This document shows, piece after piece, positions 2 to 15,597 of a DNA stretch of 34,146 nucleotides; position 1 is the first letter of the stretch; each line of letters begins with the position of its first letter. The translations under genes were made by a program, and so were the position numbers. Location of the stretch: the NCBI GenBank assembly GCA_016794525.1, contig JAEUJY010000004.1:1-34146 (forward strand), read 5' to 3'. The stretch comes from Myxococcales bacterium. GTDB taxonomy: Bacteria > Myxococcota_A > Polyangia > Haliangiales > Haliangiaceae. Under the pieces are notes generated by a model. It was not told where the DNA came from. It was given only the letters and a program-made list of their open reading frames with translations, and did not search any database.

Positions 2-865
2 CACACCGTGCGGGAGATCGAGGACATGGTGAGCGGGCGGCGGCGCGGCGACGGGCCGGATGACCCGCCGGACCCCGCCGCGCGGCTGCACGAGCTGCGG
101 CTGCTGGTGCCGGCGGCCGTGCTGGGCAAGTTCACCGCGACCCGGCGCGCGCTGGAGGCGGCGTGCGGGCATCCGCTCACCGATGGCGACGTCGTCGCGG
201 CGCTCTGCGACCCGCAGCTCGCGGGCTCCCACGTGGGAGATGGGGCGACCGCCAGGCCGATGCACCAGATCGCGATCACGCAGTGCAGCGATTGCCAGAA
301 GGCGTGGCACGACGTCGCCGGGCACACCATCGAGCTCAGCGGCGCCGAGCTGGCGCAGGCGTCGTGCGACGCGGAGCTGCTGGGGCGGGTCGACGGCGAC
401 AAGCCGGCGCGGGTGACCAAGACCATCCCGCCGCGGACGCGCCGCGCCGTGCTGCGGCGGGATCGCGGGCGGTGCGTCGTGCCGGGCTGTCGCAACGCGC
501 GGTACGTCGACGTGCATCACATCGTGCCGCGGGCGGAGGGCGGCGATCACACGCCGACCAAGCTGGCGGCGCTGTGCTCGGCGCACCACACGGCGGCGCA
601 CGACGGCCGGCTCCGGGTCGATGGAATCGCACCGGGCAAGCTGCGGTTCGTGCACGCCGATGGGCGGCCGTACGGCGTGCCGCCGTCCCACGTGGGAGAT
701 GGCGACGCGGGCGCGTCGCCACAGGTGGGCGGCCACGTCGGCGTGCCACCGTCTCAGGCCACCGCCGAGGTAGCGGCGCCGCCGGCCGCACGCACGCGCC
801 GCCGCGCCAAGATCCCACCGGCAAGGCGAACCCAGAGATCCGCCAAGGCGAGGAGGCGCCGGTGA
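2..865 (+). CDS. HNH endonuclease domain protein (5'-truncated by window edge)
   Basis: Only the C-terminal part is present; the reading frame is open to the left edge, so the true start lies outside. A Cys-rich stretch (ITQCSDCQKAWHD) precedes a clear HNH nuclease domain encoded at about 465-630. This has the CVVPGC knuckle, the HHIVPRAEGGDH core (HH catalytic pair) and a downstream LCSAHHTAAHDG with the final metal-binding His. This order matches the DUF222/HNH-type proteins found in multiple copies in actinobacterial and myxobacterial genomes. They are presumed metal-dependent DNA nucleases, but their cellular role is mostly unknown. The C-terminal tail is low-complexity, Ala/Arg-rich and basic. 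The gene contains two copies of a 12-bp perfect palindrome, each encoding SHVG. It converges on the GCS2-CBS gene. Confidence 0.85.
   Translation, partial: HTVREIEDMVSGRRRGDGPDDPPDPAARLHELRLLVPAAVLGKFTATRRALEAACGHPLTDGDVVAALCDPQLAGSHVGDGATARPMHQIAITQCSDCQKAWHDVAGHTIELSGAELAQASCDAELLGRVDGDKPARVTKTIPPRTRRAVLRRDRGRCVVPGCRNARYVDVHHIVPRAEGGDHTPTKLAALCSAHHTAAHDGRLRVDGIAPGKLRFVHADGRPYGVPPSHVGDGDAGASPQVGGHVGVPPSQATAEVAAPPAARTRRRAKIPPARRTQRSAKARRRR
227..243. repeat. Palindromic repeat, copy 1 (TCCCACGTGGGA core)
   Basis: The 12 bases at 227-238 are a perfect palindrome, TCCCACGTGGGA, followed by GATGG. The same 17 bases recur at 686-702. The copy lies inside the HNH gene and encodes SHVGDG. It looks like a short dispersed palindromic element tolerated in the reading frame. 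Confidence 0.7.
686..702. repeat. Palindromic repeat, copy 2 (TCCCACGTGGGA core)
   Basis: This is an identical 17-base copy of the element at 227-243, again in frame and encoding SHVGDG, here in the low-complexity C-terminal tail of the HNH protein. A degenerate third unit encoding GGHVGV follows at about 728-745. Confidence 0.7.
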
Positions 866-876
866 GCGGTCCCATG

Positions 877-892
877 GGGCCGTTCCCGGCCC
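877..892. terminator. Small GC hairpin between convergent genes
   Basis: GGGCCG (877-882) and CGGCCC (887-892) form a 6-bp perfect stem with a TTCC loop, in the 52-base gap between the convergent HNH and GCS2-CBS genes. There is no T-tract on either side, so intrinsic termination is only a possibility. Confidence 0.3.
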
Positions 893-917
893 GGCAACCG
901 CAATCAACGGAGCGCGA

Positions 918-2978
918 TCACCCGCCCGGCGGCTCCGGGGTCTTGCCGCGCGGCGTGTCGATCGTGCGGTCGGGGACGTCGTCGTCCGCGGGCTCGCTGT
1001 CGGCCTTGGCCACGGCCACCGCGCTGCGGTCGAGGCTGTCGCTGGTGCGGTCGGGGCCGTCCTTGGACAGCTGGTCCTCGAGCATCCGCGAGGCGATGTC
1101 CATGAAGTCTTCCTCGGTGACGATCCCGACCAGCCGGCCCTCGTCGACCACCGGCAGGCAGCCGACCTTGAGGCGGCGCATCAGCTGCAGCGCGTCGAGC
1201 GTGCGGGTCGACGGGGTCACCGTCGTCGGGTCGCGCTTCATGATCTCGGCCACCGGGGTGCGCCGGGCCGAGCCGCCGTCCATGATGAAGCGCAAGACCG
1301 CGCGGTGGGTGACCACGCCGACCAGCCGGTGGTCTTTGTCCTCGACCGGGACGTGACGGATGCGCTCCCAGATCATCAGGTTGGCGACCATCTCGATGGC
1401 GTCGTCGGCCTGCACCGTGAACAGGTCGCTGGTCATGTAGTGCTCGATGCGCCGGTAGTTGCCGCCCTTGGCGTGGGCCTCGTCGAGCCGGGCCCGCTCC
1501 CACTCCGACACCGGGCGCCCCGAGTCCTGGCGGGCGACGGTCGCGGCCACCAGCGCGTTGGCGCGCTCGGCCGGCGTCGAGCGATCGCGGAGCGAGTTCC
1601 ACGACGAGAGCTGCCAGCGCGCGCCGGTGCGCGCGGTGCGGACCCGCTCTTCGATGACGCCGAGGTAGCGCTTGACGTCGGCCGGCACCACGCCCTGGCG
1701 GCGCAGCCCGGCCTCGGCCAGCGGCAAGAGCCGCTCGAGCATCAGCTCGCGCGCCGAGATGTCCTCGTGATCGAGCCAGGTGAAGTGGGCGCCGATGCCC
1801 TCGCGGGCGGCGGTGTAGAAGTTGGCGCCGGCCTGATCGAAGTCCATCCGCCGGGGCACGTCGTCGAGTCGGTGGCCCAGCTCGACCATCAGCCCGCACC
1901 ACAGCGCGGCGTTGGCGATCTCGTCGATCGTGCTCGGCCCGGCCGGCATGATCCGGTTCTCGATGCGCAGGTGCGGCTTGCCGTCGATGATCCCGTAGCA
2001 GGCGCGGTTCCAGCGGTAGATCGTGCCGTTGTGCAGGCGCAGCGCCTTGAGCTGGGGCGCCTCGCCGCGGTCGAGCATCGCCATCGGATCCTCGTCGAGG
2101 TCGGTGCCGACCAGCGGCCGGAACCGGGCGATGTCCTCCTTGAAGATCTCGACCACCGACTGCCGCACCCAACGGGTGCCGAAGCTGACCCGCGCCTCCT
2201 GCTCGCGGATCGTGCCGCCCTTGGCGCGAGTATCGACCGCCTGGCGGAACAGCGCGATCCGGGTCTCGGCCCACAGCCGCTTGCCGAACAGGATGGGCGA
2301 GTTCGACGACACCGACATCAGCGGGCCGGCCAGCAGCTGGGCCAGGTTGTAGTAGCGGGCGAACTCGTCGGGGCTGACCTGCAGGTGGACCTGGAAGCTC
2401 GAGTTGCAGGCCTCGACCATCACCGAGTCGTGCTCGATGGTCAGCTCGTCGAGCCCCTTGATCGCGAACTCGAAGCGCCCGCCGCGCATCGCGGTCAGGA
2501 CCTTGTTGAGCTGCAGGTAGCGCTTGCTCGGCACCATGCCGTCGAGGCCGAGGTGGCTCTGGCGCATCGTGGGCAGGATGCCCATCAGCACCACCTCCAT
2601 GCCCAGCTCGCGGGCGGCGGTGCGCGCCTTGCCGACCAGCAGGTCGAGCTGCGCGTGCATCTTGGCCAGGCCGTCGCCGGTGAACACCTGCGGGTCGCAG
2701 TTGGCCTCGAGCTGGAACTGGCCGAGCTCGGTGGTGTAATGGGGGTCGGGGCGCAGCTTGTCGAGCAGCGCCAGCACGCCCCGCGCCGGCGCGAACTGGT
2801 CGTCGATCAGGAACAGCTCCTGCTCGGCGCCGATCCGTCGCACGCCAGTCTCGAACCGGCGCTCGGCGATCATCCGGTCGAGCGCGCGCAGGTCGGCGAG
2901 CACCGCGCTGGTGAACTCGCGCTGGCGCTCGGCGTCGAGGGCGCCGTCGGTGTCCTTGTGCTCCCGCGTCGTCGTCAT
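918..2978 (-). CDS. GCS2-type glutamate-cysteine-ligase-like enzyme fused to a CBS pair
   Basis: The 686-aa product has two parts. Residues 1 to about 480 match the GCS2/carboxylate-amine ligase fold, with the IGAEQELFLID strand at 49-59, a GQFQLEANCDPQ segment and the LRIENRIMPAGPS block. That fold uses ATP to join the side-chain carboxylate of glutamate or a similar acid to an amine. From residue 515 to about 637 lie two CBS motifs, HYMTSDLFTVQADD and EIMKRDPTTVTPS, each with a VGVV/VGIVT strand. CBS pairs usually bind adenine nucleotides, so ligase control by energy state is inferred. The ATG at 2978 is preceded by GAAGGGG and overlaps the stop of the upstream esterase gene (ATGA), so translation is probably coupled. 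It is the last gene of the seven-gene operon. The true substrate is unknown; classical glutathione synthesis is not implied. Confidence 0.85.
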   Translation of the reverse strand: MTTTREHKDTDGALDAERQREFTSAVLADLRALDRMIAERRFETGVRRIGAEQELFLIDDQFAPARGVLALLDKLRPDPHYTTELGQFQLEANCDPQVFTGDGLAKMHAQLDLLVGKARTAARELGMEVVLMGILPTMRQSHLGLDGMVPSKRYLQLNKVLTAMRGGRFEFAIKGLDELTIEHDSVMVEACNSSFQVHLQVSPDEFARYYNLAQLLAGPLMSVSSNSPILFGKRLWAETRIALFRQAVDTRAKGGTIREQEARVSFGTRWVRQSVVEIFKEDIARFRPLVGTDLDEDPMAMLDRGEAPQLKALRLHNGTIYRWNRACYGIIDGKPHLRIENRIMPAGPSTIDEIANAALWCGLMVELGHRLDDVPRRMDFDQAGANFYTAAREGIGAHFTWLDHEDISARELMLERLLPLAEAGLRRQGVVPADVKRYLGVIEERVRTARTGARWQLSSWNSLRDRSTPAERANALVAATVARQDSGRPVSEWERARLDEAHAKGGNYRRIEHYMTSDLFTVQADDAIEMVANLMIWERIRHVPVEDKDHRLVGVVTHRAVLRFIMDGGSARRTPVAEIMKRDPTTVTPSTRTLDALQLMRRLKVGCLPVVDEGRLVGIVTEEDFMDIASRMLEDQLSKDGPDRTSDSLDRSAVAVAKADSEPADDDVPDRTIDTPRGKTPEPPGG

Positions 2979-3733
2979 CGCACCCCTTCGCGTAGCCACT
3001 GCTCGAGGATCTGCGGCAACATCTTACGCCAGGTGATCCAGTCGTGGGGCCAGTCGGGGCCCCACGAGTCGACCCGGTTGGGGACGCCGGCCTTGCCCAG
3101 CACCTTGGCCAGGTTCCAGCTCTCGCCGATGTCCTCGGCCTTGCCCTCGCCCGAGACGATGTGGACGTAGCGGGTCCGCAGCACCTCGAGGTGGCGGCCG
3201 CCCAGGGTCGGCACGAAGTGCACCGGCGACGAAACCCAGAAGTGATCGGTGAACTCGCGCGCGTCGTAGAACCGGCGCAGGTCGTAGGTGCCGCTCATCG
3301 CCAGCGCGCGGGTGAAGACGTCGGGGAACCGGCACACCACCGCCGCGGCGTGGAACGCGCCGATCGACGCGCCGGCGGTCCAGATCGGGATGTCGGCGCT
3401 CTTGCAGTCGGCGCGGATCGCCGGCACGACCTCCTGGCGGACGTAGTGGTGGAACTGGTTCTGCAGCCACATCTGGTGCTGCGGCGACTTCTCGCGGGTG
3501 AGCAGCGCCTTGCCGGCCACCGAGTCGCACGAGTAGACCTTGAGCTGGCCGCTGTCGAGCAGCGGCGCCAGCACGTCCATCATCTGGAACCGCTCGACCT
3601 CCTCGGCGTCGCCGCCGGCGGTCGGGAACAGCAGCAGCGGCTGGCCGATGGTGCCCCACTTGACCATCGTGACGTCGCGCTCGAGGCGCTCGCTGCGCCA
3701 GCGGCCGACGACCTTGTCGCCGCGCTCACCCAT
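2975..3733 (-). CDS. Alpha/beta-hydrolase, esterase family (second esterase of operon)
   Basis: The 252-aa product resembles the putative esterase (esterase D/Fes-like) family. The nucleophile elbow GASIG lies at 121-125 with Ser123 in the catalytic position, and a C-terminal PHDW motif places the likely catalytic His at about 230. No signal peptide is seen, so it should be cytoplasmic. Family members hydrolyse ester or thioester bonds of small molecules. The ATG at 3733 overlaps the end of the upstream ATP-grasp gene by 8 bases, and its TGA overlaps the ATG of the GCS2-CBS gene, so it is translationally embedded in the operon. The open frame extends further upstream, but that extension is an Arg/Pro-rich shadow of the ATP-grasp gene. 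Substrate unknown; the operon context suggests hydrolysis or transfer of the operon's ligase product. Confidence 0.8.
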   Translation of the reverse strand: MGERGDKVVGRWRSERLERDVTMVKWGTIGQPLLLFPTAGGDAEEVERFQMMDVLAPLLDSGQLKVYSCDSVAGKALLTREKSPQHQMWLQNQFHHYVRQEVVPAIRADCKSADIPIWTAGASIGAFHAAAVVCRFPDVFTRALAMSGTYDLRRFYDAREFTDHFWVSSPVHFVPTLGGRHLEVLRTRYVHIVSGEGKAEDIGESWNLAKVLGKAGVPNRVDSWGPDWPHDWITWRKMLPQILEQWLREGVR

Positions 3734-4994
3734 GGCTGGCACCGCCCGCGGGGCCGCCGGTGCCGGGCTCGGCCCGCCACGCCTGGATGCGCTTCCAGAA
3801 CAGCTCGGTGAACGGCTCGACCTCGTGCTTGGGGAACAGCGCCGCGACCTTGGCCCGGACCGCGCCCTTGGCGGTCTCGGTGCCGAAGAACTCCCACGCC
3901 ACCTCGTCGAGGTGGGCCAGGTGGGTGGCGCAGAACTCCTCGAACCGATCGGCCTCGAAGCGCTGCTTGGCGATCGCCGCGTAGGCGCGCAGCTTGTCAC
4001 GGTAGGGGCGGTCGCGGTCCGCGGCGATCGCGTAGAACGGCTCCCAGTCGAGGGTCTTGCGCATCGGCCGCTTGGTCACCGCGCAGAAGATCGACCACCG
4101 CAGGTTGGCCTTCACCAGCCACGGGAAGTGGCGGTGCAGCGACGTCACCTGGGAGTCGGGGCACGGGTTGGCGAAGTCGATCGGGAACCACTCGCCGCCC
4201 TTGCGCAGCGCCTCGCACGAGTTGAAGTCCCAGCCGAAGAACGCGTTGATCGTCAGCGTCGTGTCGCGCAGGATCTCGGCCTCGTCGGCCGACACGAAGT
4301 CGGTGGCCTGGGTGTAGCGATCGTGGAGCGCGGCGTCGGGGTCGTACTTGACCAGGTGGGTCTGCGGGCCCAGCCCGATGCAGCGGACGAAGCTGTCGAA
4401 CGGGTGCACCGCGGCCTGCAGGTGCATGACGCTCTTGCCGCTCTCCTCGTAGCGGGCCTTGAGCTGGCCCTCGTCGGCGCACCGGCTGACCGCGCGCCAG
4501 CCGCCGCCGTCGTACGGCTTCATGAACAGCGGGTAGCCGAGCTGCTTGCCGATCGCGCGCAGGTCGAACAGCTTGGCGTAGCGCTTGAGCGTCGGCGCCA
4601 GGTCGGGCAGCGGCTCGTAGTCCTTGGGCGGCACCATCCACGTGTCGGGGATGGGCATGCCCAGCGCCATCATCGCGCAGTACGAGGTGTGCTTCTCGTT
4701 GGCCTGCACCGACCACGGGTTGTTGAGGACGTACAGGCCGTCCATCAGGATGGCCTTTTTGATCCACTCGCGGCTGGTGTGGTACCAGTGCGTCAGCCGA
4801 TCGAGGACGACGTCGTACTTGCACGGCTGGCGCAGATCGAACGGCTCGATCGTCACGCGCTCGGTGGCGATCGTGACGGTGTCGCCTTGCCACGGGATGG
4901 CGAGATCGAGCTTGCCGAGGATCTGCTCGTAACAGATCGGCCAGCAGATGTCGGCGCCCAGCGAGAGACCAATGGTGCGGGTGACGGGGGCCAT
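3726..4994 (-). CDS. ATP-grasp superfamily ligase (second of operon)
   Basis: The 422-aa product has ATP-grasp features. The central lysine strand and glycine loop, YPLFMKPYDGGGW, lie at about 154-166. The acidic metal-binding strands are FFGWDFNSCEAL (about 253-263) and FPIDFANPCPD (about 270-280), the latter like the D/E-x-N pattern that ligates magnesium. ATP-grasp enzymes activate a carboxylate as acyl phosphate and join it to an amine or thiol. The ATG at 4994 is preceded by GGAAG and begins 10 bases after the upstream stop; an ATG at 5003 (MEAMAP) is an alternative one base after that stop. The 3' end overlaps the esterase gene by 8 bases. It is only distantly similar to the other ATP-grasp protein in the operon, so two different ligation steps are likely. 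Substrates cannot be read from the sequence. Confidence 0.8.
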   Translation of the reverse strand: MAPVTRTIGLSLGADICWPICYEQILGKLDLAIPWQGDTVTIATERVTIEPFDLRQPCKYDVVLDRLTHWYHTSREWIKKAILMDGLYVLNNPWSVQANEKHTSYCAMMALGMPIPDTWMVPPKDYEPLPDLAPTLKRYAKLFDLRAIGKQLGYPLFMKPYDGGGWRAVSRCADEGQLKARYEESGKSVMHLQAAVHPFDSFVRCIGLGPQTHLVKYDPDAALHDRYTQATDFVSADEAEILRDTTLTINAFFGWDFNSCEALRKGGEWFPIDFANPCPDSQVTSLHRHFPWLVKANLRWSIFCAVTKRPMRKTLDWEPFYAIAADRDRPYRDKLRAYAAIAKQRFEADRFEEFCATHLAHLDEVAWEFFGTETAKGAVRAKVAALFPKHEVEPFTELFWKRIQAWRAEPGTGGPAGGASHG

Positions 4995-5004
4995 CGCTTC
5001 CATC

Positions 5005-6141
5005 CTATTCGTAGACGAGCAGGAACGGGCCGGGCAGCAGCCACGACAGCGCGTCGCGCAGCCGATCGCGCCAGTTCTCCCAGTTGTGACCGTCCCGGGC
5101 TTCCACGTAGCGGACATCCATGCCTGTGCCGAGCAGCATCGGCACCAGCGACCGGTTCTCGTAGATCAGCGACTCGTACATGCCGCAGCTGACGAAGACC
5201 CGCTCCGAGACGGCGGTCGGCTCGGCGCGGAACCGGTTCATGAACGCGACCACCGGGTCGAACAGCGGGCCGCGGTGGTTGCGGTCGCCGATGTCGGTGA
5301 ACGCGAAGCTGCCCGACTGCAGCAGCAGCCGGCCGTAGAAGCCGGGGTACCGGCACGCCGTCGACAGCGCCGCGACCGCGCCGAAGCTGGCGCCCATCAG
5401 GCACCGGCTCTGCGGCACCGCCTCGAGCGGGAAGGTGCGCTCGACGAACGGCACCAGGTCCTCGGTCAGGTAGCGGGCGTGGCGCTCGTCGTCGGCGTAC
5501 TCGCGCAGCCGGTCGGGCGAGCTGGTGAACACGACGATCGCGTCGGCGACCTCGAGCCGATCGATCAGGTTGTCGAGGACGGTGCCCATCGACGCGTAGC
5601 GCAGGTAGTCGTGGCCGTCGTGGACGACCAGGAGCGGGTAGCGGCGGCTGCGCTTGAACCGCGCCGGCACGTACAGCCCGAAGCTGCGGCGGCCGAAGGT
5701 CTTGGAGTCGAGGAAGATCTCGTCGAGCCGGCCCGGCGGCGCGGCGCGGTCGTGGTGGATCCAGGTCGGCACCTCGTAGCCGGTGCCGTGGGCCACCGAG
5801 TTGGCGCCGAACGGATCGCGAGCCAGCGCGCCGTTGAGCGGATCCTGGATCCACTCGCCCTTGCCGTGGCGGACGATCTCGAGCTTGTATTCGACGCGCG
5901 AGCCCGGCGGCAGCTGCATCGTCAGGTGCCAGACGTCGGTGCCGTCGACGCGGGCCAGCGACTGCGACGACGGCAGGCCGAACACCCAGTGCTTGAGGTG
6001 CACCGCCTCGGCGTCGCCCCGCCAGACGAACGTGATCGACGGGCCGACCACGACCGGGAACTTGTGGCGGCCGATCCACGCGTCGACCGCCTCGCGGGTC
6101 CGCGGGCTGGCCTCGAGCTCGGCGATCACGCCCGCGCTCAC
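5005..6141 (-). CDS. Fes/enterochelin-esterase-like hydrolase with N-terminal E-set domain
   Basis: The 378-aa product combines an N-terminal beta-sandwich region (about residues 28-125, VTFVWRGDAEAVHL-like start and a DPLNGALARDPFGANS segment) with a C-terminal alpha/beta-hydrolase. This layout is typical of enterochelin esterase-like proteins. The nucleophile motif GASFG is at 250-254 (Ser252), and the DGHNW motif gives the probable catalytic His at about 352. No signal peptide is present. The start is GTG at 6141, forming a GTGA overlap with the stop of the preceding gene, with GAGGTG eight bases upstream. True siderophore hydrolysis is unlikely, since no siderophore synthesis or uptake gene is nearby. 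The E-set domain resembles the CBM48-like modules of glycogen enzymes, which is intriguing next to glgA, but that link is inference. Confidence 0.82.
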   Translation of the reverse strand: MSAGVIAELEASPRTREAVDAWIGRHKFPVVVGPSITFVWRGDAEAVHLKHWVFGLPSSQSLARVDGTDVWHLTMQLPPGSRVEYKLEIVRHGKGEWIQDPLNGALARDPFGANSVAHGTGYEVPTWIHHDRAAPPGRLDEIFLDSKTFGRRSFGLYVPARFKRSRRYPLLVVHDGHDYLRYASMGTVLDNLIDRLEVADAIVVFTSSPDRLREYADDERHARYLTEDLVPFVERTFPLEAVPQSRCLMGASFGAVAALSTACRYPGFYGRLLLQSGSFAFTDIGDRNHRGPLFDPVVAFMNRFRAEPTAVSERVFVSCGMYESLIYENRSLVPMLLGTGMDVRYVEARDGHNWENWRDRLRDALSWLLPGPFLLVYE

Positions 6142-7124
6142 GCCGGCACCTCGTCGGCGCTGTCGCCCAGCGCCAGCAGCGCGGGCGCGACCGGCGCGGC
6201 GGTCCACGCGGCGTCGATGCCCCCGTCGGGCCGCAGGTGGCGGCCGCGGCCGGCGACCAGCGCGCCGTCGACGAAGTCGAGCCGCGCGCCGAGATCCATG
6301 CCGACGCACACCGCCGGCGCCATCCGCCGCGCGAACCGCGCGATCGCCGGGCCGGTGTCGGGGTTGAGCCGCCGGCTGGGATCGGGCATGACGACCACGC
6401 CGGGCGCGACGCCGAAGCCGCTGTCGAGCACCTGCGCGACGTCGGAGCCGTACGGCGGGTAGTCGTGATAGAGGACGATGCGATCGGTCAGCACCATCGC
6501 GCCGGCGCCCCACGCGATGATCGGCTTGCCGGCGGCCAGGCCGAGCACGTCGAACAACTCGAGCCGGTTGTGCAAGGACGCGACGTGGCCGCCGGCGATG
6601 ACCAGCGCCTCGACCGGGGCCAGGAGCGCCGTCAGCTCGGCGCGGTGGCGCGCCACCGTCGGCCGATCGGTCGGGTGCCACAGCGCCGCGAACGCGGTGC
6701 GCACCTGCTCGCAGCGGGTGACGTGGTTGGCGTCGAGCTGCCGGAACTGCTCGACCGACACCGCGTCCTCGCCCTCGAGCAGCTCGGGCTCGAAGTAGCG
6801 CAGCGCGATCGTCCGGGCCGCGTCCTCGGTCTTCTCCAGGCGCACCCGGTAGCAGCTCTGCATGTGGCGGAGCAGCGCCTGGCGATCGCGGTACGCGGCG
6901 GTGAATGCGGGATCGTCGGCGAACACCGCGCTGGCGCGGGCGTGGAGCGCCAGGTTGACCGCCGGCACGCCCAGCGCCGCGACCAGCGCGCCGTCGTCGG
7001 CCTCGCGCTCCTGGTAGCCCGCGCGCACGATCGCGATCGGCCCGCGCAGGCCGCGCTCGCGCACCACCGCGCCGACGTCCGGCGTGGCGTGCTGCGAGCC
7101 GAGCACGATCACCTCGGCGGGCAT
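6138..7124 (-). CDS. Type-1 GATase / peptidase S51-like protein lacking the nucleophile
   Basis: The 328-aa product has the layout of the class-I glutamine-amidotransferase/S51 (dipeptidase E, cyanophycinase) fold. The strand and turn VIAGGHVASLHNRLELF is at 175-191, and the nucleophile-elbow region IIAWGAGAMVL is at 202-212, followed by YHDYPPYG. In active S51 peptidases the elbow reads G-x-S-A-G; here the Ser/Cys position is Gly206, so the usual nucleophile is absent. This suggests a non-catalytic binding or partner subunit, or a different chemistry. The ATG at 7124 shares one base with the stop of the upstream ATP-grasp gene (TGATG), and its stop overlaps the esterase start (GTGA). Longer in-frame extensions are shadows of the ATP-grasp gene. 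Family assignment is by motif only and moderate. Confidence 0.65.
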   Translation of the reverse strand: MPAEVIVLGSQHATPDVGAVVRERGLRGPIAIVRAGYQEREADDGALVAALGVPAVNLALHARASAVFADDPAFTAAYRDRQALLRHMQSCYRVRLEKTEDAARTIALRYFEPELLEGEDAVSVEQFRQLDANHVTRCEQVRTAFAALWHPTDRPTVARHRAELTALLAPVEALVIAGGHVASLHNRLELFDVLGLAAGKPIIAWGAGAMVLTDRIVLYHDYPPYGSDVAQVLDSGFGVAPGVVVMPDPSRRLNPDTGPAIARFARRMAPAVCVGMDLGARLDFVDGALVAGRGRHLRPDGGIDAAWTAAPVAPALLALGDSADEVPA

Positions 7125-8344
7125 CAGCGCGCGTGGACCTTCAACGTGCGGCCGACGGCGTCGAGGATCTGCCGGCAGCGGTCGTAGTCCTCGTGCTTCA
7201 TCCGCACCCAGGCGTTGGCCATGTAGCCGGCCTCGACGCCCTGGGTCGGCGTGCCGGGCGGCGGCAGGTGCCAGTCGATCAGGTTGGCGCCGAACGCCTC
7301 GCGGATCGCGTCGACGCCGTCGTAGTGGCTGATCCGGCCGTCGCGATCGGGGCGCAGCGCGATGATGCCGGCGGACATCCGCCGCGACGGGCGCTGGCTG
7401 GGCCGGCCGGCGGCGATCAGCATCGCCCACTCGCGGTACAGGTCCATGTCGTTGGCGACGTTGTAGAGGTCCCACGCGCGCACGCCCGGCGGGCGGCAGC
7501 CGATCTCCGAGAACTTCAGGCCCTTGGGCCCGAAGAACCACTCCATGTGGGTGGCCGAGGTCTCGATGCCGAGCAGCTCGATGACCTTGGCGGCCATCGC
7601 CTTGACCTCGCGGTAGCCGTCGGCGTCGATGCGGTTGGTGGTGATGAACTGCGGCGAGATCCACCGCGTGCGCATCGCCTCGAGGACGTTGGGGTAGTAG
7701 TGGGTCGCGAACTCGTGGACGACGTGGCCGCGCAGGGTCAGCGTGTCGAAGAAGCCCTCGTGGCCCTCGATGAACTCCTCGACGGCGATCGACCTGCCGT
7801 GCTGCAGGTGCAGCGCGGCGGCCGCGGCCTCGAGCTCGCGGTCGCTGTCGACCCGCGCCGCGCCCGAGGCGCCGGCGCCGTCGCGCGGCTTGACCAGGAT
7901 CGGGTAGCCGACCCGCTCGGCGAACTCGCGCAGCTCGGCCAGGCTGCCGGCGGCGGACGACTGCGCGCACGGCACGCCGCCGGCGCGCAGCACCTCCTTC
8001 ATCGCCGGCTTGTCGCGGCACAGGAACGCGGTGCGCGCGCTGGTGCCGGGGATGCCGGCCGCCTCGCGCACGTGCGCGGTGGGCATGATGTGGGCCTCGA
8101 CCGAGGCCTCGAGCCGGTCGACGTGGGCGTGGCGCTGGATGAACCGCACCTTGGCCAGCACCTGCTGCTCGTCGCAGACGTTGGTGACCTCCTCGTAGTG
8201 GGTCAGCCAGCGCTTGAGGTCGTCGTCGAGCGACGCCTTGCTGCCCTCGCCGATCGCGCTGATCGTCGCGCCGACCTCGGCCAGCGCGCGGATGAACTGC
8301 TTCTGGTTGGCGGGGAACCGCGGCTCGATGAAGACGACGTGCAT
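7124..8344 (-). CDS. ATP-grasp superfamily ligase (first of operon)
   Basis: The 406-aa product is a carbamoyl-phosphate-synthase/biotin-carboxylase-like ATP-grasp protein. The ATP-binding lysine and flexible loop, YPILVKPRDGAGASG, are at 147-161. The adenine-side acidic pair is AVEEFIEG (187-194), and the metal-binding strands are HMEWFFG (Glu268) and KFSEIGCRPPG (Glu280). The EIG-x-RPPG form resembles ATP-grasp amino-acid ligases that use EIGARPGG. Members typically ligate amino acids or peptides through acyl phosphates. The ATG at 8344 follows AGAGAG at normal spacing and lies 19 bases after the glgA stop; the 3' end overlaps the S51-like gene by one base. The N-terminal MHVVFIEPRFPANQKQF is a Rossmann-like preATP-grasp domain. 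Substrate unknown. Confidence 0.85.
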   Translation of the reverse strand: MHVVFIEPRFPANQKQFIRALAEVGATISAIGEGSKASLDDDLKRWLTHYEEVTNVCDEQQVLAKVRFIQRHAHVDRLEASVEAHIMPTAHVREAAGIPGTSARTAFLCRDKPAMKEVLRAGGVPCAQSSAAGSLAELREFAERVGYPILVKPRDGAGASGAARVDSDRELEAAAAALHLQHGRSIAVEEFIEGHEGFFDTLTLRGHVVHEFATHYYPNVLEAMRTRWISPQFITTNRIDADGYREVKAMAAKVIELLGIETSATHMEWFFGPKGLKFSEIGCRPPGVRAWDLYNVANDMDLYREWAMLIAAGRPSQRPSRRMSAGIIALRPDRDGRISHYDGVDAIREAFGANLIDWHLPPPGTPTQGVEAGYMANAWVRMKHEDYDRCRQILDAVGRTLKVHAR

Positions 8345-8363
8345 GGCGATCTCTCTTTGCCGC

Positions 8364-9803
8364 TCAGCGGTCGGTGCCGATCAGCTTTTCGTAGACGTAC
8401 TCGTAGCGGCGGGCCTGGCGGTCCCACGAGAAGTCGGCGGCCATGCCGTTGTCGATCAGCCGCGACCACGCCGGCGGGTCGCGGTACGTCGCGAGCGCGG
8501 CCTGCAGCGCCCACCGCACGCCGGCGGCGTCGTGGTGCTCGAAGACGAAGCCGGTGCCGGTGCGGGTGCGCGGGTGCCACGGCCGCACGGTGTCGGCGAG
8601 GCCGCCGGTCTTGTGGACGATCGGCACGGTGCCGTAGCGCAGGCTGTACAGCTGGTTGAGGCCGCACGGCTCGTAGCGCGACGGCATCAGGAACATGTCG
8701 GCGCCGGCCTCGATCTGGTGCGCCAGCTTGTTGCTGAAGCCCTGGTAGAAGCAGACCTGGCGCGGGAACGCGCGCTGCAGGCGGGTGAACATGTCCTCGA
8801 GGCCGGGCTCGCCGCTACCGAGGACGGTGAGCTGGAAGCCGTTGCGCTGGAGCAGGCCCGGCAGCACCTCGCCGAGCAGGTCGAAGCCCTTCTGGCTCGC
8901 CATCCGCGACACGATGCCGACCACCGGCGCGCTGGGCACGTAGGGGAGCCCGAGGCTCTCGACCAGCGCCTGCTTGCAGATCGCCTTGTTGCTGCGATCG
9001 GCGGCGGAGTAGCGCGCGGGCAGGTAGCGATCGTTCTCGGGCGACCACTCGTCGTAGTCGACGCCGTTCAGGATGCCGACGACGGTGGTCTTGCGCGCGC
9101 GCAGGAAACCGTCGAGGCCGGCGCCGTGAGCCGGGGTCTGGATCTCCTGCGCGTAGGTCGGGCTGACCGTCGACACGCCGTCGGCGTAGAGGATGCCCTG
9201 CAGGAGGAAGTTGACCCGGCCGGCCTTCAGCAGCTCCTGGTGGAACAGGTGCGCGACGTGGGTGAGGTTGGTGTCGGGCCCGATCGAGTCGGGGAACCCG
9301 CCCTGGTAGTTGAGGTTGTGGATCGTCAAGAGCGACCGCGCGCCGGCGAGGTGGCGATCGCGCGCGTAGATCGTCTTGAGGAGCAGCGGGATCAGCGCGG
9401 CCTGCCAGTCGTGGCAGTGGACGACGTCGGGCGCGAAGTCGAGCCGGCCGCACAGCTCGAGCGCGGCGTACGACAGGAGCAAGAACCGGCGGTGCTCGTC
9501 GGCGTCGCTGGTGTACAGCCGGCCGCGGGCGTAGAGCGGCGGGCAGTGCAAGAAGTAGATCGTCGGCGCGGTGCCCAGCGCCAGCACCCGCACCGGGTAG
9601 CGGTGCGACCCCAGCGGGATGGTCAGCTCGGCGACCTGGGTCAGCGTCACGCCGTCGAGCTTCGCCGTGTCGTACAGCGGCACGACGATGCGGACGTCAT
9701 GCCCAGCCCGGGCCAGCGTCTTGGGTAGCGCGGCCACGACGTCGGCCAGGCCACCGGTCTTGGCGTAGGGCGCCAGCTCAGAAGCAACGAACAGCAGCTT
9801 CAC
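8364..9803 (-). CDS. glgA: Glycogen synthase (ADP-glucose type, GT5)
   Basis: The 479-aa product has the hallmark GT5 N-terminus with KTGGLADV at 15-22, which binds ADP-glucose, the DVVHCHDW strand, NGVDYDEW, the RMASQKGFDLL segment starting the second Rossmann domain, and SRYEPCGLNQLYSLRYG with the conserved Glu-x7-Glu-like region. It extends alpha-1,4-glucan chains in the cytoplasm. Length equals that of typical bacterial GlgA, so the gene looks complete. It starts with GTG at 9803. It is the first gene of the minus-strand operon and is followed after 19 bases by an ATP-grasp ligase; no glgB, glgC or glgP is seen. Whether the downstream ligase/esterase genes act on glycogen metabolism or only share its transcript is open. 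Confidence 0.93.
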   Translation of the reverse strand: MKLLFVASELAPYAKTGGLADVVAALPKTLARAGHDVRIVVPLYDTAKLDGVTLTQVAELTIPLGSHRYPVRVLALGTAPTIYFLHCPPLYARGRLYTSDADEHRRFLLLSYAALELCGRLDFAPDVVHCHDWQAALIPLLLKTIYARDRHLAGARSLLTIHNLNYQGGFPDSIGPDTNLTHVAHLFHQELLKAGRVNFLLQGILYADGVSTVSPTYAQEIQTPAHGAGLDGFLRARKTTVVGILNGVDYDEWSPENDRYLPARYSAADRSNKAICKQALVESLGLPYVPSAPVVGIVSRMASQKGFDLLGEVLPGLLQRNGFQLTVLGSGEPGLEDMFTRLQRAFPRQVCFYQGFSNKLAHQIEAGADMFLMPSRYEPCGLNQLYSLRYGTVPIVHKTGGLADTVRPWHPRTRTGTGFVFEHHDAAGVRWALQAALATYRDPPAWSRLIDNGMAADFSWDRQARRYEYVYEKLIGTDR

Positions 9804-9858: not shown

Positions 9859-10761
9859 TTACCACCAGACGGTGAGCGCCGACGCCAGCGGGGCGGCGAG
9901 GCGCGCGACCTGGGCCGCGCCGATGCGCATCTCGGCGAACGGCGACCACGGATCGGCCAGCAGATCGCGTCGCACCTCGAGACACAGGGTCCGCCCGGGC
10001 AGCGCCAGCACGTGGGCGTAGGCCTGGGTGCTGGGATGGAGCGGGTAGGTCGCGCCGCCGGCGACGTCGAGGCCGAGCGCGGTGGCGGCTGTGGTGAGGG
10101 CCGCGACGACCGCCGGCGGCGCGTGGTCGACGCCGTCGAGCGTCTTGCCGATCACGTCCAGCGCCGGCCGCAGCGGCCAGGTGTCGGCGCGATCGGGCGC
10201 GTACGCCCGCCGCAGGTTGGCCACGATCTCGTGATCGACCTGCACGTCGACGGTGCGCGGCGCGTAGGTGTGCAGCATCAGCATCGCGCCATCGGCGGCC
10301 AGCGCGGCGCGCGCCGCCATGACGGTGGCGACGTAGGCGTCGAACACGCCCCGCAACAGCACGCGGTCGGCGTCGGTCGCGATCCACGGCATCAGCCCGG
10401 GGCCGACCTTGCCGGTGCGGAAGTCCTCGGCCGACGCGTCGATCTGCCGGTTGCAGTCGATGAACGTCCGCGGCACGCGGCACCGCAGGATCAACACGCT
10501 GCGCACCGGCTGCGCCGCCACCAGCGCGTGCGCCGCCGCGACCGCGAGCTCGGGCGCCCCCGCGTCGGTGTTGACGTGGAAGAAGTCGCTGAGGTCCGCC
10601 GGCAGCGGGCTCGTCAGCTGCGCCGCGTAGTGATCGTAGTCGGCCGTGCGCGTCGCGCCGTGCGGGATCTCGATCAGCAGATCGGGCGTCGGGCCGGCCG
10701 CCGCACCGCGGATCAGCTCGACATCGACGACGTGGGGGATGGACGACGGCAGCGAAGTCAC
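9859..10761 (-). CDS. N-formylglutamate amidohydrolase (FGase/HutG-like) family protein
   Basis: The 300-aa product shows the FGase family pattern: LLIEIPHGATRT near the N-terminus (the His and acidic residues bind the metal), FHVNTDAGAPELA, RTFIDCNRQIDA and LCLEVRRDLL near the end. Family members hydrolyse N-formyl-L-glutamate in histidine degradation or related N-acyl amino acids. No other hut gene is here, so the substrate is open. The frame stays open to a GTG at 10872. The extra 37 codons encode a Gly-Ser repeat and use A/T-ending codons unlike the rest, so the GTG at 10761 is preferred; an ATG at 10842 is another choice. It is 55 bases upstream of glgA on the same strand, so co-transcription with that operon is possible. 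Confidence 0.7.
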   Translation of the reverse strand: MTSLPSSIPHVVDVELIRGAAAGPTPDLLIEIPHGATRTADYDHYAAQLTSPLPADLSDFFHVNTDAGAPELAVAAAHALVAAQPVRSVLILRCRVPRTFIDCNRQIDASAEDFRTGKVGPGLMPWIATDADRVLLRGVFDAYVATVMAARAALAADGAMLMLHTYAPRTVDVQVDHEIVANLRRAYAPDRADTWPLRPALDVIGKTLDGVDHAPPAVVAALTTAATALGLDVAGGATYPLHPSTQAYAHVLALPGRTLCLEVRRDLLADPWSPFAEMRIGAAQVARLAAPLASALTVWW

Positions 10762-11763: not shown

Positions 11764-14700
11764 TCACGCCAGCGACGCCCACAGCTCTGCGAGCCGCGGC
11801 GCAGACACCGGCACGGCGGTGCGCAGCTCGGGCGCGAACGCTTGCACGCGCAGCTCCTCGAGCAGCCAGCCGAACTCCTCGAGGTCGTCCAGCGCGCCGC
11901 CGCGGCGGCGGGCCTCGGCGTACGCGGCGCGGAACTTCTGCCACAGCGGGACGACCGGCGCGGCCTTGCTGGCGTCCTTCTGCGGATCGAGCGCGAGCCG
12001 CTCCAGCCGGATCTGCACGGCGCGCAGGTAGCGCAGCAGGTGATCGAGGCGATCGAGCGGCGCGAGGCGCACCAGCTCGGGCGTGATCAGGTGCGCGAGC
12101 TGGCTGTCGATGTCGTCGATGGCGGCCTTCCACAGCCCGGGCTTGCCGAGCAGCGGCTTCTGCAGCCGGCGCACCTTCTCGACCTCGACGTGGACCGCCA
12201 GCGCGACGCGCGAGAGATCGAGCAGCGCGACCGGCAGCGCGCGGCGGCCCTCGTCGAGCTGCGCCTCCCACGCGGCCCGCGTGCGGGGCAGCGGGTCGGC
12301 CGGCGTCAGGCCGAAGGCGTCGTCGAGCGCGCGCAGCACGACCTGGCGGCGCGGCGTGGCCGGCGCGCCGGCGACTACCAGCGGCCCCGACGCCAGCGCG
12401 CCCGCGACCTGGGCGTCGAGCTTGGTCAGCGTGGTCCGCAGATCGAGCAGCACCAAGCGGCGCAGCCCGGCGCGGGTGGCGGCCTCGGCGGCGGCGGCGG
12501 TCTCGAGCAGCCGCAGGTCGACCGCGGTCTCGGTGTCGACCAGCGCCGGGTAGGCGGTGAGGCGGCGGCCGGCGACGTCGAGCGTCACCGACGCCGGCAG
12601 CGCGTCGAAGTCCCAGCGGGTCAGGCCGGCGCGCTCGTGGCGCGACCGCGGCGCCTTGGCCCACAGCTCCTGGGCCCGCGGCGCCAGCGAGCGCTGCAGC
12701 TCGGCCAGGTCGCGGCCGCGGCCCAGCTCGCGGTCGTGCTCGTCGACGACGCGGAAGCCCAGCGCCAGGTACGGCGGCAGCGCCCGGCGGTCCCACGCGG
12801 TCCGCGGCACCCGCTCGCCGGTGCGCTGGAAGATCGCGCGCTCGAGCGTCGGCAGCAGCGGCCCGCTGAACGGCTTCAGCTCGGCGGCCAGCGCTGTCGC
12901 GAGCGCGTCGAGCGGGAACAGCGTCTTGCGCACCGCCTTGGGCAGGTTCTCGAGCAGCCCTTCGATCAGCGCGTGGTGCCAGCCGGGGATGGTCCAGGCC
13001 AGCTGCTCGGGATCGAGCTGCGGCAAGAGCGCCAGCGGCACCGTCGCGGTGACGCCGTCGTCGTCCTCGCTGGGCTCGAAGCGGTAGGTCAGCGGCAAGG
13101 TCGCGCCGCCGATCGTCAGCTGATCGGGGAACTGCTCGGGCGACAGCGCCGCGGCCTCGTCCAGCAGCACGTCCTCGAGCGCGAGGTGCAGCACGTCGGG
13201 GTCCTTGGCCTCGGCGTCCTTGCGCCACTGCTCGAAGGTCTTGCCGCTGAACACGCCGGGCCCGACGCGCTGCTCGAAGAACTGCTCCAGCGCGTACTCG
13301 TCGGCCAGCACGTCGCCCTTGCGCGCCTTGTCGCGGATCCGCTGTACCTCGTCGAGCACCGCCCGGTTGTGGGCCATGAACGCGCCCTTGGTCGTGTACT
13401 CGTGGCGCACCAGCGCGTGGACGATGAACAGCTCGCGGGCCGCGGTCGGATCGATCGGGCCGTACGGGACGCGCCGATCCTTGATGATCGGCAGGCCGTA
13501 CAGCGTCACGTGCTCGCGCGCCATCACCTGCGCTTGCTTCAGCTCCCAGTGCGGGTGGCCGTAGGTCTTGCGGCACAGCGGGCCGGCGGCGCGCTCGAGC
13601 CAGGTCGGATCGATCTTGGCGACGGTGCGTGCGAACAGCTGCGAGGTCTCGACCAGCTCGGCCGCCATCACCCACGGCGTCGGCTTGCGGGCCAGCCCCG
13701 ACGACGGGTGGATCAGGAAGCGGGTCTGGCGCGCGCCGATGTAGCAGCGCGTCTCCTGGTTCCACATGCCGATCTTGCTGAGCAGGCCGGGCAGGAGCGC
13801 GCGGTGGATCTGCTCGGCCGACGCCGGCGGCGTGTCGATCGCGAAGCCCAGCTCGCGCACGGTGCGCTTGAGCTGCTCGTGGATGTCCTCCCACTCGCGC
13901 ATGCGCGGGAACGACAGGAAGTTGTCGCGGCACAGCCGGTGCAGCTGGTTCTTGCTCGACCGGCTGCGGGCCTCCTGCCAGAACGCCCACAGCTTGAGGT
14001 AGCCCGCGAAGTCGCTGCCCTCGTCCTTCCACTTGGCGTGGGCCGCGTCGGCTTTTTGCTGCGCCGCCATCGGCCGCTCGCGCGGATCCTGCAGGCCCAG
14101 CGCCGCGGCGATCACCAGCACCTCGGGCAGCGCGCGCTCGTCGACGCCGCCCAGGATCATCCGGCCCAGCCGCGGATCGATCGGCAGCTTGCCGAGCTGG
14201 CGGCCGATCGGCGTCAGCGCGCCGTGGTCGTCGATCGCGCCCAGCTCCTCGAGCACGTGGTAGCCCTCGTCGATCGCGCGCTTGCTGGGCGGATCGAGGA
14301 ACGGGAAGCTCTCGACCGCGCCGAGGTCGAGCGCCTTCATGCGCAGGATGACGCCGGCCAGCCCGACCCGCTTGATCTCGGGATCGGTGTACGCCGGCCG
14401 CGCCAGGAAGTCGGCCTCCTCGTACAGCCGGAAGCACACGCCGTTGGCGGTGCGGCCGCAGCGGCCCTTGCGCTGGTTGGCGCTGGCCTGGGACACCTCC
14501 TCGACGAGCAGCTGGGTGACGCCGGTGCGCACGCCGTAGCGGTTGACGCGGGCGACGCCGGCGTCCACGACGTAGACGATGCCGGGGATGGTCAGCGAGG
14601 TCTCGGCGACGTTGGTCGCCAGCACGACGCGGCGCGGGCCGCCGGTCTGGAACACCCGCTGCTGCTCGGCGCCCGCCAGCCGCGCGTACAGCGGCAGGAT

Positions 14701-15597
14701 CGCCGTGTGTGGCAGCGCGCGCTCGGTGATCGCGCCCATCGCCTCGCGGATCTCGCGCTCGCCGGGCAGGAACACCAGGATGTCGCCGCGCGGATCGAGC
14801 TCGGCGATCTCGTTGACGGTGTTGGCCACCGCGTCGATCAGGTCGGCCTCGTCGGGGCGCGGCGGCCGGTACAGCACGTCGACCGGGAAGGTCCGCCCCG
14901 ACACCTCGATCACCGGCGCGCCGTCGAAGAACTGCGCGAAGCGCTCGGTGGCCAGCGTCGCCGAGCTGATGATCACCCGCAGGTCGGGGCGGCGCGGCAG
15001 CACCTGCTTGATGAAGCCGAGCAGGAAGTCGATGTTGAGGCTGCGCTCGTGGGCCTCGTCGATGATCAGCGTGTCGTAGCCGCGCAGCAGCGGATCGCCG
15101 TGGAGCTCGGCGAGCAGGATGCCGTCGGTCATGAACTTGATGTAGGTCGACGGCCGCACGGTGTCCGAGAACCGGACCTGGTAGCCGACGACGTCGCCGG
15201 GCTCGGTGCCGAGCTCGGCCGCGACCCGGGCCGCGACGCTGGTGGCGGCGATGCGCCGCGGCTGGGTGCAGCCGATCCGGCCGTGGACGCCGCGGCCCAT
15301 CGCCAGGCACATCTTGGGCAGCTGCGTGGTCTTGCCCGAGCCGGTCTCGCCCGCGACGATGATCACCTGGTGCTGGTCGATCGCGTTGACCAGATCGATC
15401 AGCCGCGCGCTGATCGGCAGCTCGGGCGGGAACGCCACCCGCGGGCTCAGCGTCAGCCCGGCGCGCAAGCGCGGCCCACCTGACCCAGGCGGCTGCGCGG
15501 GCGGCTGCGCGGGCGGCTGCGCGGGCGGTGCGGCCGGCGCAGGGGGCGGGGCCGGAGGATCGGACGGCGGGGACACGGCGGCCCCGGGGAGTATCAC
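11764..15597 (-). CDS. hrpA: ATP-dependent RNA helicase HrpA (DEAH box)
   Basis: The product is about 1277 aa, close to the 1300 aa of E. coli HrpA. Motifs appear in order: GETGSGKT (83-90, Walker A), TQPRRIAA (motif Ia), DEAH (180-183), SSAT (motif III), ATNVAETSLTIPG (motif V) and QRKGRCGRT (motif VI). A long C-terminal region fits the HrpA-specific HA2/OB/DUF3418 part. HrpA unwinds RNA and is linked to mRNA processing and ribosome rescue. The start is uncertain: GTG at 15597 or 15576 fits codon bias, and the open frame further upstream does not. The N-terminal tail is Pro/Ala/Gln-rich, made by a 12-base tandem repeat. It is divergent from an exported-protein gene with an 80-base shared promoter region. 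Confidence 0.92.
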   Translation of the reverse strand: MILPGAAVSPPSDPPAPPPAPAAPPAQPPAQPPAQPPGSGGPRLRAGLTLSPRVAFPPELPISARLIDLVNAIDQHQVIIVAGETGSGKTTQLPKMCLAMGRGVHGRIGCTQPRRIAATSVAARVAAELGTEPGDVVGYQVRFSDTVRPSTYIKFMTDGILLAELHGDPLLRGYDTLIIDEAHERSLNIDFLLGFIKQVLPRRPDLRVIISSATLATERFAQFFDGAPVIEVSGRTFPVDVLYRPPRPDEADLIDAVANTVNEIAELDPRGDILVFLPGEREIREAMGAITERALPHTAILPLYARLAGAEQQRVFQTGGPRRVVLATNVAETSLTIPGIVYVVDAGVARVNRYGVRTGVTQLLVEEVSQASANQRKGRCGRTANGVCFRLYEEADFLARPAYTDPEIKRVGLAGVILRMKALDLGAVESFPFLDPPSKRAIDEGYHVLEELGAIDDHGALTPIGRQLGKLPIDPRLGRMILGGVDERALPEVLVIAAALGLQDPRERPMAAQQKADAAHAKWKDEGSDFAGYLKLWAFWQEARSRSSKNQLHRLCRDNFLSFPRMREWEDIHEQLKRTVRELGFAIDTPPASAEQIHRALLPGLLSKIGMWNQETRCYIGARQTRFLIHPSSGLARKPTPWVMAAELVETSQLFARTVAKIDPTWLERAAGPLCRKTYGHPHWELKQAQVMAREHVTLYGLPIIKDRRVPYGPIDPTAARELFIVHALVRHEYTTKGAFMAHNRAVLDEVQRIRDKARKGDVLADEYALEQFFEQRVGPGVFSGKTFEQWRKDAEAKDPDVLHLALEDVLLDEAAALSPEQFPDQLTIGGATLPLTYRFEPSEDDDGVTATVPLALLPQLDPEQLAWTIPGWHHALIEGLLENLPKAVRKTLFPLDALATALAAELKPFSGPLLPTLERAIFQRTGERVPRTAWDRRALPPYLALGFRVVDEHDRELGRGRDLAELQRSLAPRAQELWAKAPRSRHERAGLTRWDFDALPASVTLDVAGRRLTAYPALVDTETAVDLRLLETAAAAEAATRAGLRRLVLLDLRTTLTKLDAQVAGALASGPLVVAGAPATPRRQVVLRALDDAFGLTPADPLPRTRAAWEAQLDEGRRALPVALLDLSRVALAVHVEVEKVRRLQKPLLGKPGLWKAAIDDIDSQLAHLITPELVRLAPLDRLDHLLRYLRAVQIRLERLALDPQKDASKAAPVVPLWQKFRAAYAEARRRGGALDDLEEFGWLLEELRVQAFAPELRTAVPVSAPRLAELWASLA
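15489..15527. repeat. 12-bp tandem repeat in hrpA N-terminal tail
   Basis: About three copies of GGCGGCTGCGCG run in tandem and encode PPAQ units on the minus strand, just before the helicase core. The unit keeps the frame, so copy-number change would only lengthen or shorten a flexible linker. Confidence 0.7.

Follow-up and report, generated by a model that had tools for sequence, protein, structure and literature searches.

A glycogen synthase among ligases and esterases: a candidate glycogen-coupled conjugate pathway in Myxococcota and other phyla

Bacterial glycogen is usually seen as a polymer of glucose and nothing more, and clusters of peptide ligases are assigned to a separate secondary metabolism. 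What is a glycogen synthase gene doing, then, at the head of an operon of ligases and esterases? The question is raised by a stretch of 34,146 nucleotides from a bacterium of the Haliangiaceae (Myxococcota; assembly GCA_016794525.1, contig JAEUJY010000004.1, positions 1 to 34,146), here called the window. A check of its reading frames found seven open frames, from glgA to a gene for a GCS2-CBS protein, all on the minus strand at 918-9803, precisely where a first-pass annotation made from the letters alone had placed them. That annotation had proposed a pathway that builds and takes apart an amino-acid-based conjugate. We find that these genes belong to a larger set, conserved across phyla. This set may form a discrete glycogen-coupled system that builds and dismantles an amino-acid or short-peptide conjugate borne by the glucan, a reading that we prefer tentatively, its chances being somewhat short of even. 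From its upstream end, the cluster in the window reads as follows.

Z, 9859..10761, minus strand: N-formylglutamate amidohydrolase-family (FGase) zinc hydrolase (PF05013, 33.7 bits, above the cut-off of 28.9)
A, 8364..9803, minus strand: glgA, ADP-glucose glycogen synthase (TIGR02095, 534.1 bits, above 328.45)
B, 7124..8344, minus strand: ATP-grasp ligase, L-amino acid ligase / PurK-like (PF02222, 8.4e-10)
C, 6138..7124, minus strand: protein of S51 (cyanophycinase/peptidase E) fold (Pfam S51, 15.9 bits, below 23.9; AlphaFold2 model)
D, 5005..6141, minus strand: Fes-like esterase with an N-terminal Enterochelin_N (E-set) domain (PF00756, 4.6e-20; PF11806, 2.3e-07)
E, 3726..5003, minus strand: ATP-grasp ligase of RimK/LysX fold (AlphaFold2 model; no Pfam match)
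F, 2975..3733, minus strand: second PF00756 esterase, without the N-terminal domain (4.9e-08)
G, 918..2978, minus strand: divergent GCS2 carboxylate-amine ligase domain followed by a CBS pair (PF04107, 30.1 bits, above 21; PF00571, 94 bits)

The junctions are tight, as had been claimed. A 19-base gap separates A from B; beyond it the range extends from an 8-base overlap (E/F) to a 1-base gap (D/E), with overlaps of 1 base for B/C and of 4 bases for C/D (GTGA) and F/G (ATGA). The cluster starts with the FGase gene, which lies 55 bases before glgA and occupies the same position in Kofleriaceae-type loci. Seven genes were too few for the set, which also comprises this FGase, or else an AstE/AspA-type hydrolase, and two further B-type ATP-grasps, paralogs of B that had been overlooked. 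Most of the family assignments of the first-pass annotation are backed by Pfam or profile scores; those of E, which has no Pfam match, and of C, which stays under its cut-off, were settled by predicted structures.

Is the arrangement peculiar to one genome? Neighbourhoods were collected by tblastn and profile searches, and 1,880 genes predicted by a codon-trained caller were clustered over some 130 loci bearing E, the best-conserved marker of the set. In this clustering E is present in 123 loci, D in 100, C in 93, F in 88, B-type ATP-grasps in 79 (148 copies) and glgA in 57. Fewer loci have G (41), FGase (21), AstE/AspA (17) or glgC (12) and, genes of a smaller module discussed below aside, the next cluster reaches only 5 loci. 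No other gene family, small substrate proteins included, recurs around E in the loci collected. The order Z-A-B-C-D-E-F-G is maintained in Kofleriaceae-type loci; in Acidobacteriota and Planctomycetota a C-D-E-F core comes with B, glgA and glgC, arranged in various ways. The genes are kept together across phyla, and the proposal thereby withstands the refutation that the first-pass annotation had set for it, namely neighbourhoods in which they are not conserved together. Relatives of E with 36-40% identity in Planctomycetota (loci L124-L127) were considered as members of the system; they have no partners, and they are treated as solitary paralogs. Two of them (L124 and L126) adjoin a serC-like aminotransferase and an ABC-transporter ATPase.

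Presence and absence across genomes tell a similar story. Among 80 Myxococcota genomes chosen by their E status, 36 have E and 44 lack a full-length E (10 of the latter having only a distant one). D is found in 36/36 of the former and 0/44 of the latter, as are B-type ATP-grasps (Fisher p 1e-23; here and below, p values ignore genome kinship). Linkage alone does not account for this co-occurrence, since D and B sit on contigs different from that of E in several genomes. GCS2-CBS, tried as a core member, was rejected: it is present in 23/36 genomes with E and also in 11/44 of the others. Found in part of the systems and in genomes without E, it is best seen as facultative. Matches to E occur in 121/379 Myxococcota genomes, with at least 55% identity in about 102 (a few cut by contig ends) and as relatives of only 30-38% in about 19, and roughly one in four of the Myxococcota genomes sampled has the system. 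In other phyla the counts, which like that for Myxococcota include the centre genomes, are 20/119 for Planctomycetota, 5/149 for Acidobacteriota and 1/299 for Pseudomonadota, the single case being the centre genome itself. Among the best 80 of 493 places kept from a scan of genome contigs, a few E places lie in metagenome-assembled genomes labelled Gemmatimonadetes, Eisenbacteria and Alphaproteobacteria, which may have been mis-binned. The plasmid collection holds no match to E, and the PADLOC anti-phage defence models gave no match for six proteins.

Is the glycogen synthase more than a bystander? In a tree of 75 GlgA sequences (a quick IQ-TREE run, with SH-aLRT support only), one clade (SH-aLRT 100, branch 0.46) holds 33/35 operon-linked sequences, both of those classed as 'near' and 3 unlinked ones; the other unlinked GlgA fall outside. 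The exceptions come from Enhygromyxa salina SWB007 (L110), whose linked glgA is of the ordinary type, and from locus L122. Genome G178 has a glgA of the operon type. On this tree the operon GlgA is a well-supported subfamily of its own. The genome of the window has, in addition, an ordinary glgA next to glgC on another contig (C166, L176). Within about 10 kb of E, glgA is found in 26/56 non-redundant loci with full flanks, against an expectation of <<1% for one or two copies per genome. Over all non-redundant loci its orientation is the same in 29 and opposite in 25. All 36 genomes with E have glgA, compared with 30/44 of the others (p 1.5e-4), a correlation of the kind that the first-pass annotation had called for when it suggested a possible tie to glycogen storage. 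The tie is upheld by the dedicated GlgA subfamily and by a neighbourhood in which glgA, glgC, glgX, debranching enzyme and GH57 appear; as cases in point, some Planctomycetota loci also hold glgC, a glycogen debranching enzyme and GH57.

What would the ligases join? The best solved relatives of B are the L-amino acid ligases 4wd3 and 3vot. Like such enzymes (BacD, BL00235, 4wd3), B and its paralogs B' and B'' have an ATP-grasp core, and B and B'' weakly display an LAL_C2 domain. Unlike them, they are three co-occurring paralogs tied to glycogen genes, far under the BacD cut-off (42.4 bits for B against 850). Genomes with E have two to seven B-type proteins, and a tree of 72 of these resolves three fully supported clades, each spanning phyla; by this phylogeny, B belongs to an ancient trio of paralogs. 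The examples inspected from the three clades retain HMEWF-type and E[IV]xxRxxG motifs. In the genome of the window, B' and B'' lie side by side in divergent orientation where contig C4 begins (771-3225; L174:771-3234). This contig may adjoin the end of the window, since in the congener L031 some 1.8 kb separate G from a B-type gene that follows it on the other strand. The congener G086 has a second B-type pair on another contig (L175:9568-12038). The AlphaFold2 model of E (predicted local distance difference test, pLDDT, 90.6) matches RimK, LysX and ArgX, with RimK 5zct at the top (Z score 19.7, root-mean-square deviation 3.0, 261 residues aligned). E shares their fold over residues 9-310. It differs from them by its 14% identity, by an additional helical C-terminal domain (about 310-415) and by its gene context, and it scores 24.1 bits with rimK_fam TIGR00768, where the cut-off is 143.4. 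For G, the YbdK model TIGR02050 is not among the 25 matches listed of 29.

And what would undo their work? The model of C (pLDDT 91.8) has a Z score of 16.5 to cyanophycinase 7uqw and of 15.5 to peptidase E, the next group lying below 6; a long helical hairpin (residues 72-149) is inserted into the S51 fold. The pseudo-peptidase that the first-pass annotation counted in the set holds for the window, where Gly206 stands at the nucleophile position in place of the catalytic serine of S51. It does not hold for the family: at the nucleophile elbow, 70 aligned sequences have Ser (47), Cys (13), Gly (4), Ala (3) or Thr (3), and the histidine that comes after it, H220, never varies. We considered C as a fixed pseudo-enzyme and dropped the idea, because 60/70 relatives have Ser or Cys at the elbow. 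The loss of the nucleophile is thus lineage-specific and no mark of the system, and in most relatives C is probably an active hydrolase. D contains Enterochelin_N (PF11806, 32 bits, cut-off 27.1) and esterase (PF00756, 72.9 bits, cut-off 22) domains, and its Ser252 and His352 are conserved in 74/74 sequences. Its nearest relatives are CE1 ferulic acid esterases and enterochelin esterase. It departs from Fes and the CE1 feruloyl esterases in scoring far under the enterochelin esterase equivalog NF007758 (94.2 bits against 222), and no siderophore genes recur nearby. In F, Ser123 is conserved in 65/65 sequences and His230 in 64/65. The zinc hydrolases alternate: in other loci AstE/AspA, located after G, takes the place of FGase, and the two are near-exclusive (together in 1/70). 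In many Polyangia-type loci an AstE/AspA-type gene directly follows GCS2-CBS (e.g. L060:13937-14950), replacing the FGase before glgA.

Known systems resemble this one in part. The cyanophycin system (CphA, CphB) has ATP-grasp ligases, and C has the fold of CphB; yet the cluster has no CphA-type protein combining ATP-grasp and Mur-ligase domains, and the nucleophile of C is here a glycine. No Mur-ligase domain is present in B, B' or B'', E has no Pfam domain, and cyanophycin synthetase models cover B partially, far below cut-off. A smaller GCS2/RimK-like module (L163-L165, L167-L169) also sets an E-type ATP-grasp beside an F-type esterase, a GCS2 ligase and a class I glutamine-amidotransferase-like (GATase1) protein. 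It combines, in varying ways, the GATase1-like protein, the F-like esterase, a short E-like ATP-grasp, a circularly permuted ATP-grasp and YbdK, and it may be one of the amidoligase neighbourhoods surveyed by Iyer et al. (2009). Its E is 28-36% identical and lacks the C-terminal domain, and a CP_ATPgrasp_2 protein and a true YbdK stand in place of B, B', B'', D, C and GCS2-CBS. Judged by its sequences, it shares the ancestry of E and F, but not D, B, C or glgA: none of the 10 tested genomes with the module and without full-length E has D or B, and no glgA was seen beside it in the loci inspected. Some genomes have two E-like copies. A possible partial small-module E occurs in 1/36 genomes with E; mutual exclusion of the two systems was considered and dropped, this overlap not being significant given the rarity of the module. 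That linked peptide ligases work in succession is an established theme, according to a passage of PMC4431377 that cites Iyer et al. (2009). A literature search met no paper on the gene set; the amidoligase survey of Iyer et al. (2009) lay outside its reach, and a prior mention there is possible. As far as that search went, the combination of this ligase set with a glycogen synthase is undescribed, as the first-pass annotation had supposed, and its parts are of known kinds.

Two other genes flank the operon. At the extreme end of the contig, adjoining the end of the operon, 8-865 on the plus strand codes for a protein with, by eye, an HNH-nuclease-like C-terminus. Upstream, on the operon's strand, 11767-15468 codes for a protein of 1,234 residues with DEAH-type helicase motifs (HrpA-like by eye).

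How might the parts work together? In B, B' and B'', in the RimK-like E and, where present, in GCS2-CBS, carboxylates would be converted to acyl phosphates, and these ligases would then attach amino acids or amines in successive rounds. The alpha-glucan made by the dedicated GlgA would be the acceptor, the carrier or the primer. An ester linking the conjugate to a hydroxyl group of the sugar would be formed or cleaved by the PF00756 enzymes D and F, and C, with the FGase or AstE/AspA zinc enzyme, would trim or recycle the amide part. We infer that the enzymes act in one pathway, that its product is an amide and that the glucan carries it, this last step being the least certain. Several facts weigh against the scheme. 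Activities are predictions throughout the set. B, E and G score so far under the curated cut-offs of characterized ligases that they may use substrates other than amino acids. In about half of the loci no glgA lies inside 10 kb, GCS2-CBS is also found without the system, and the window's own C has the glycine described above. Small soluble esters, too, are substrates of PF00756 enzymes, which makes the glucan ester a guess. The build-and-dismantle pathway of the first-pass annotation survives as a conserved, co-occurring and glycogen-tied set of fitting make-up; it had to be amended in that the set is larger, GCS2-CBS facultative and C mostly endowed with Ser or Cys.

Might the genes be neighbours without joint function, their overlapping frames reflecting a compact genome? 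It is true that the esterases, GCS2 and FGase come from common families and that GCS2-CBS is also met where the other genes are absent. However, the set is conserved across phyla, is re-formed in other orders, and shows its all-or-none co-occurrence even when unlinked; this co-occurrence of unlinked members practically refutes the explanation. A free small molecule is a far more serious contender, close behind the glucan-borne conjugate and itself having perhaps one chance in three: the ligases would make an osmolyte, a nitrogen reserve or a cofactor-like peptide, merely co-regulated with a dedicated glycogen pool, and the esterases would act on a soluble ester intermediate. The logic would be comparable to that of N-acetylglutaminylglutamine amide or of cyanophycin. 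The kinship of B with free L-amino acid ligases, the cyanophycinase fold of C, the families of AstE/AspA and FGase, which deal with acylated amino acids, and a glgA that is not always adjacent all suit it. Co-regulation alone, however, explains less well that a whole GlgA subfamily follows the system, and two esterases lack an explanation. RimK adds amino acids to ribosomal protein S6, and the ligases could likewise tag a protein, such as GlgA or a glycogen-bound protein, the tag being removed by C, FGase or AstE. The top structural matches of E, RimK and RimK with RpsF, and the dedicated GlgA are in keeping with such tagging. We think it unlikely: the esterases would have no role, the B-type ligases resemble free amino-acid ligases, and no small protein that might be the substrate is conserved from locus to locus.

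Three B-type ATP-grasps, a RimK-like ligase and two esterases tied to a GlgA subfamily of their own point to an unrecognized reserve, primer or polymer modification. The system can be put to the test in cultured bacteria such as Enhygromyxa salina. In its boldest form, which we hold to be rather doubtful, the proposal is that Myxococcota, Planctomycetota and some Acidobacteriota would make a chemically modified glycogen: an alpha-glucan carrying, or primed by, an amino-acid or peptide group, produced by a dedicated glycogen synthase with four or five ligases, and turned over by esterases and amidases of its own.

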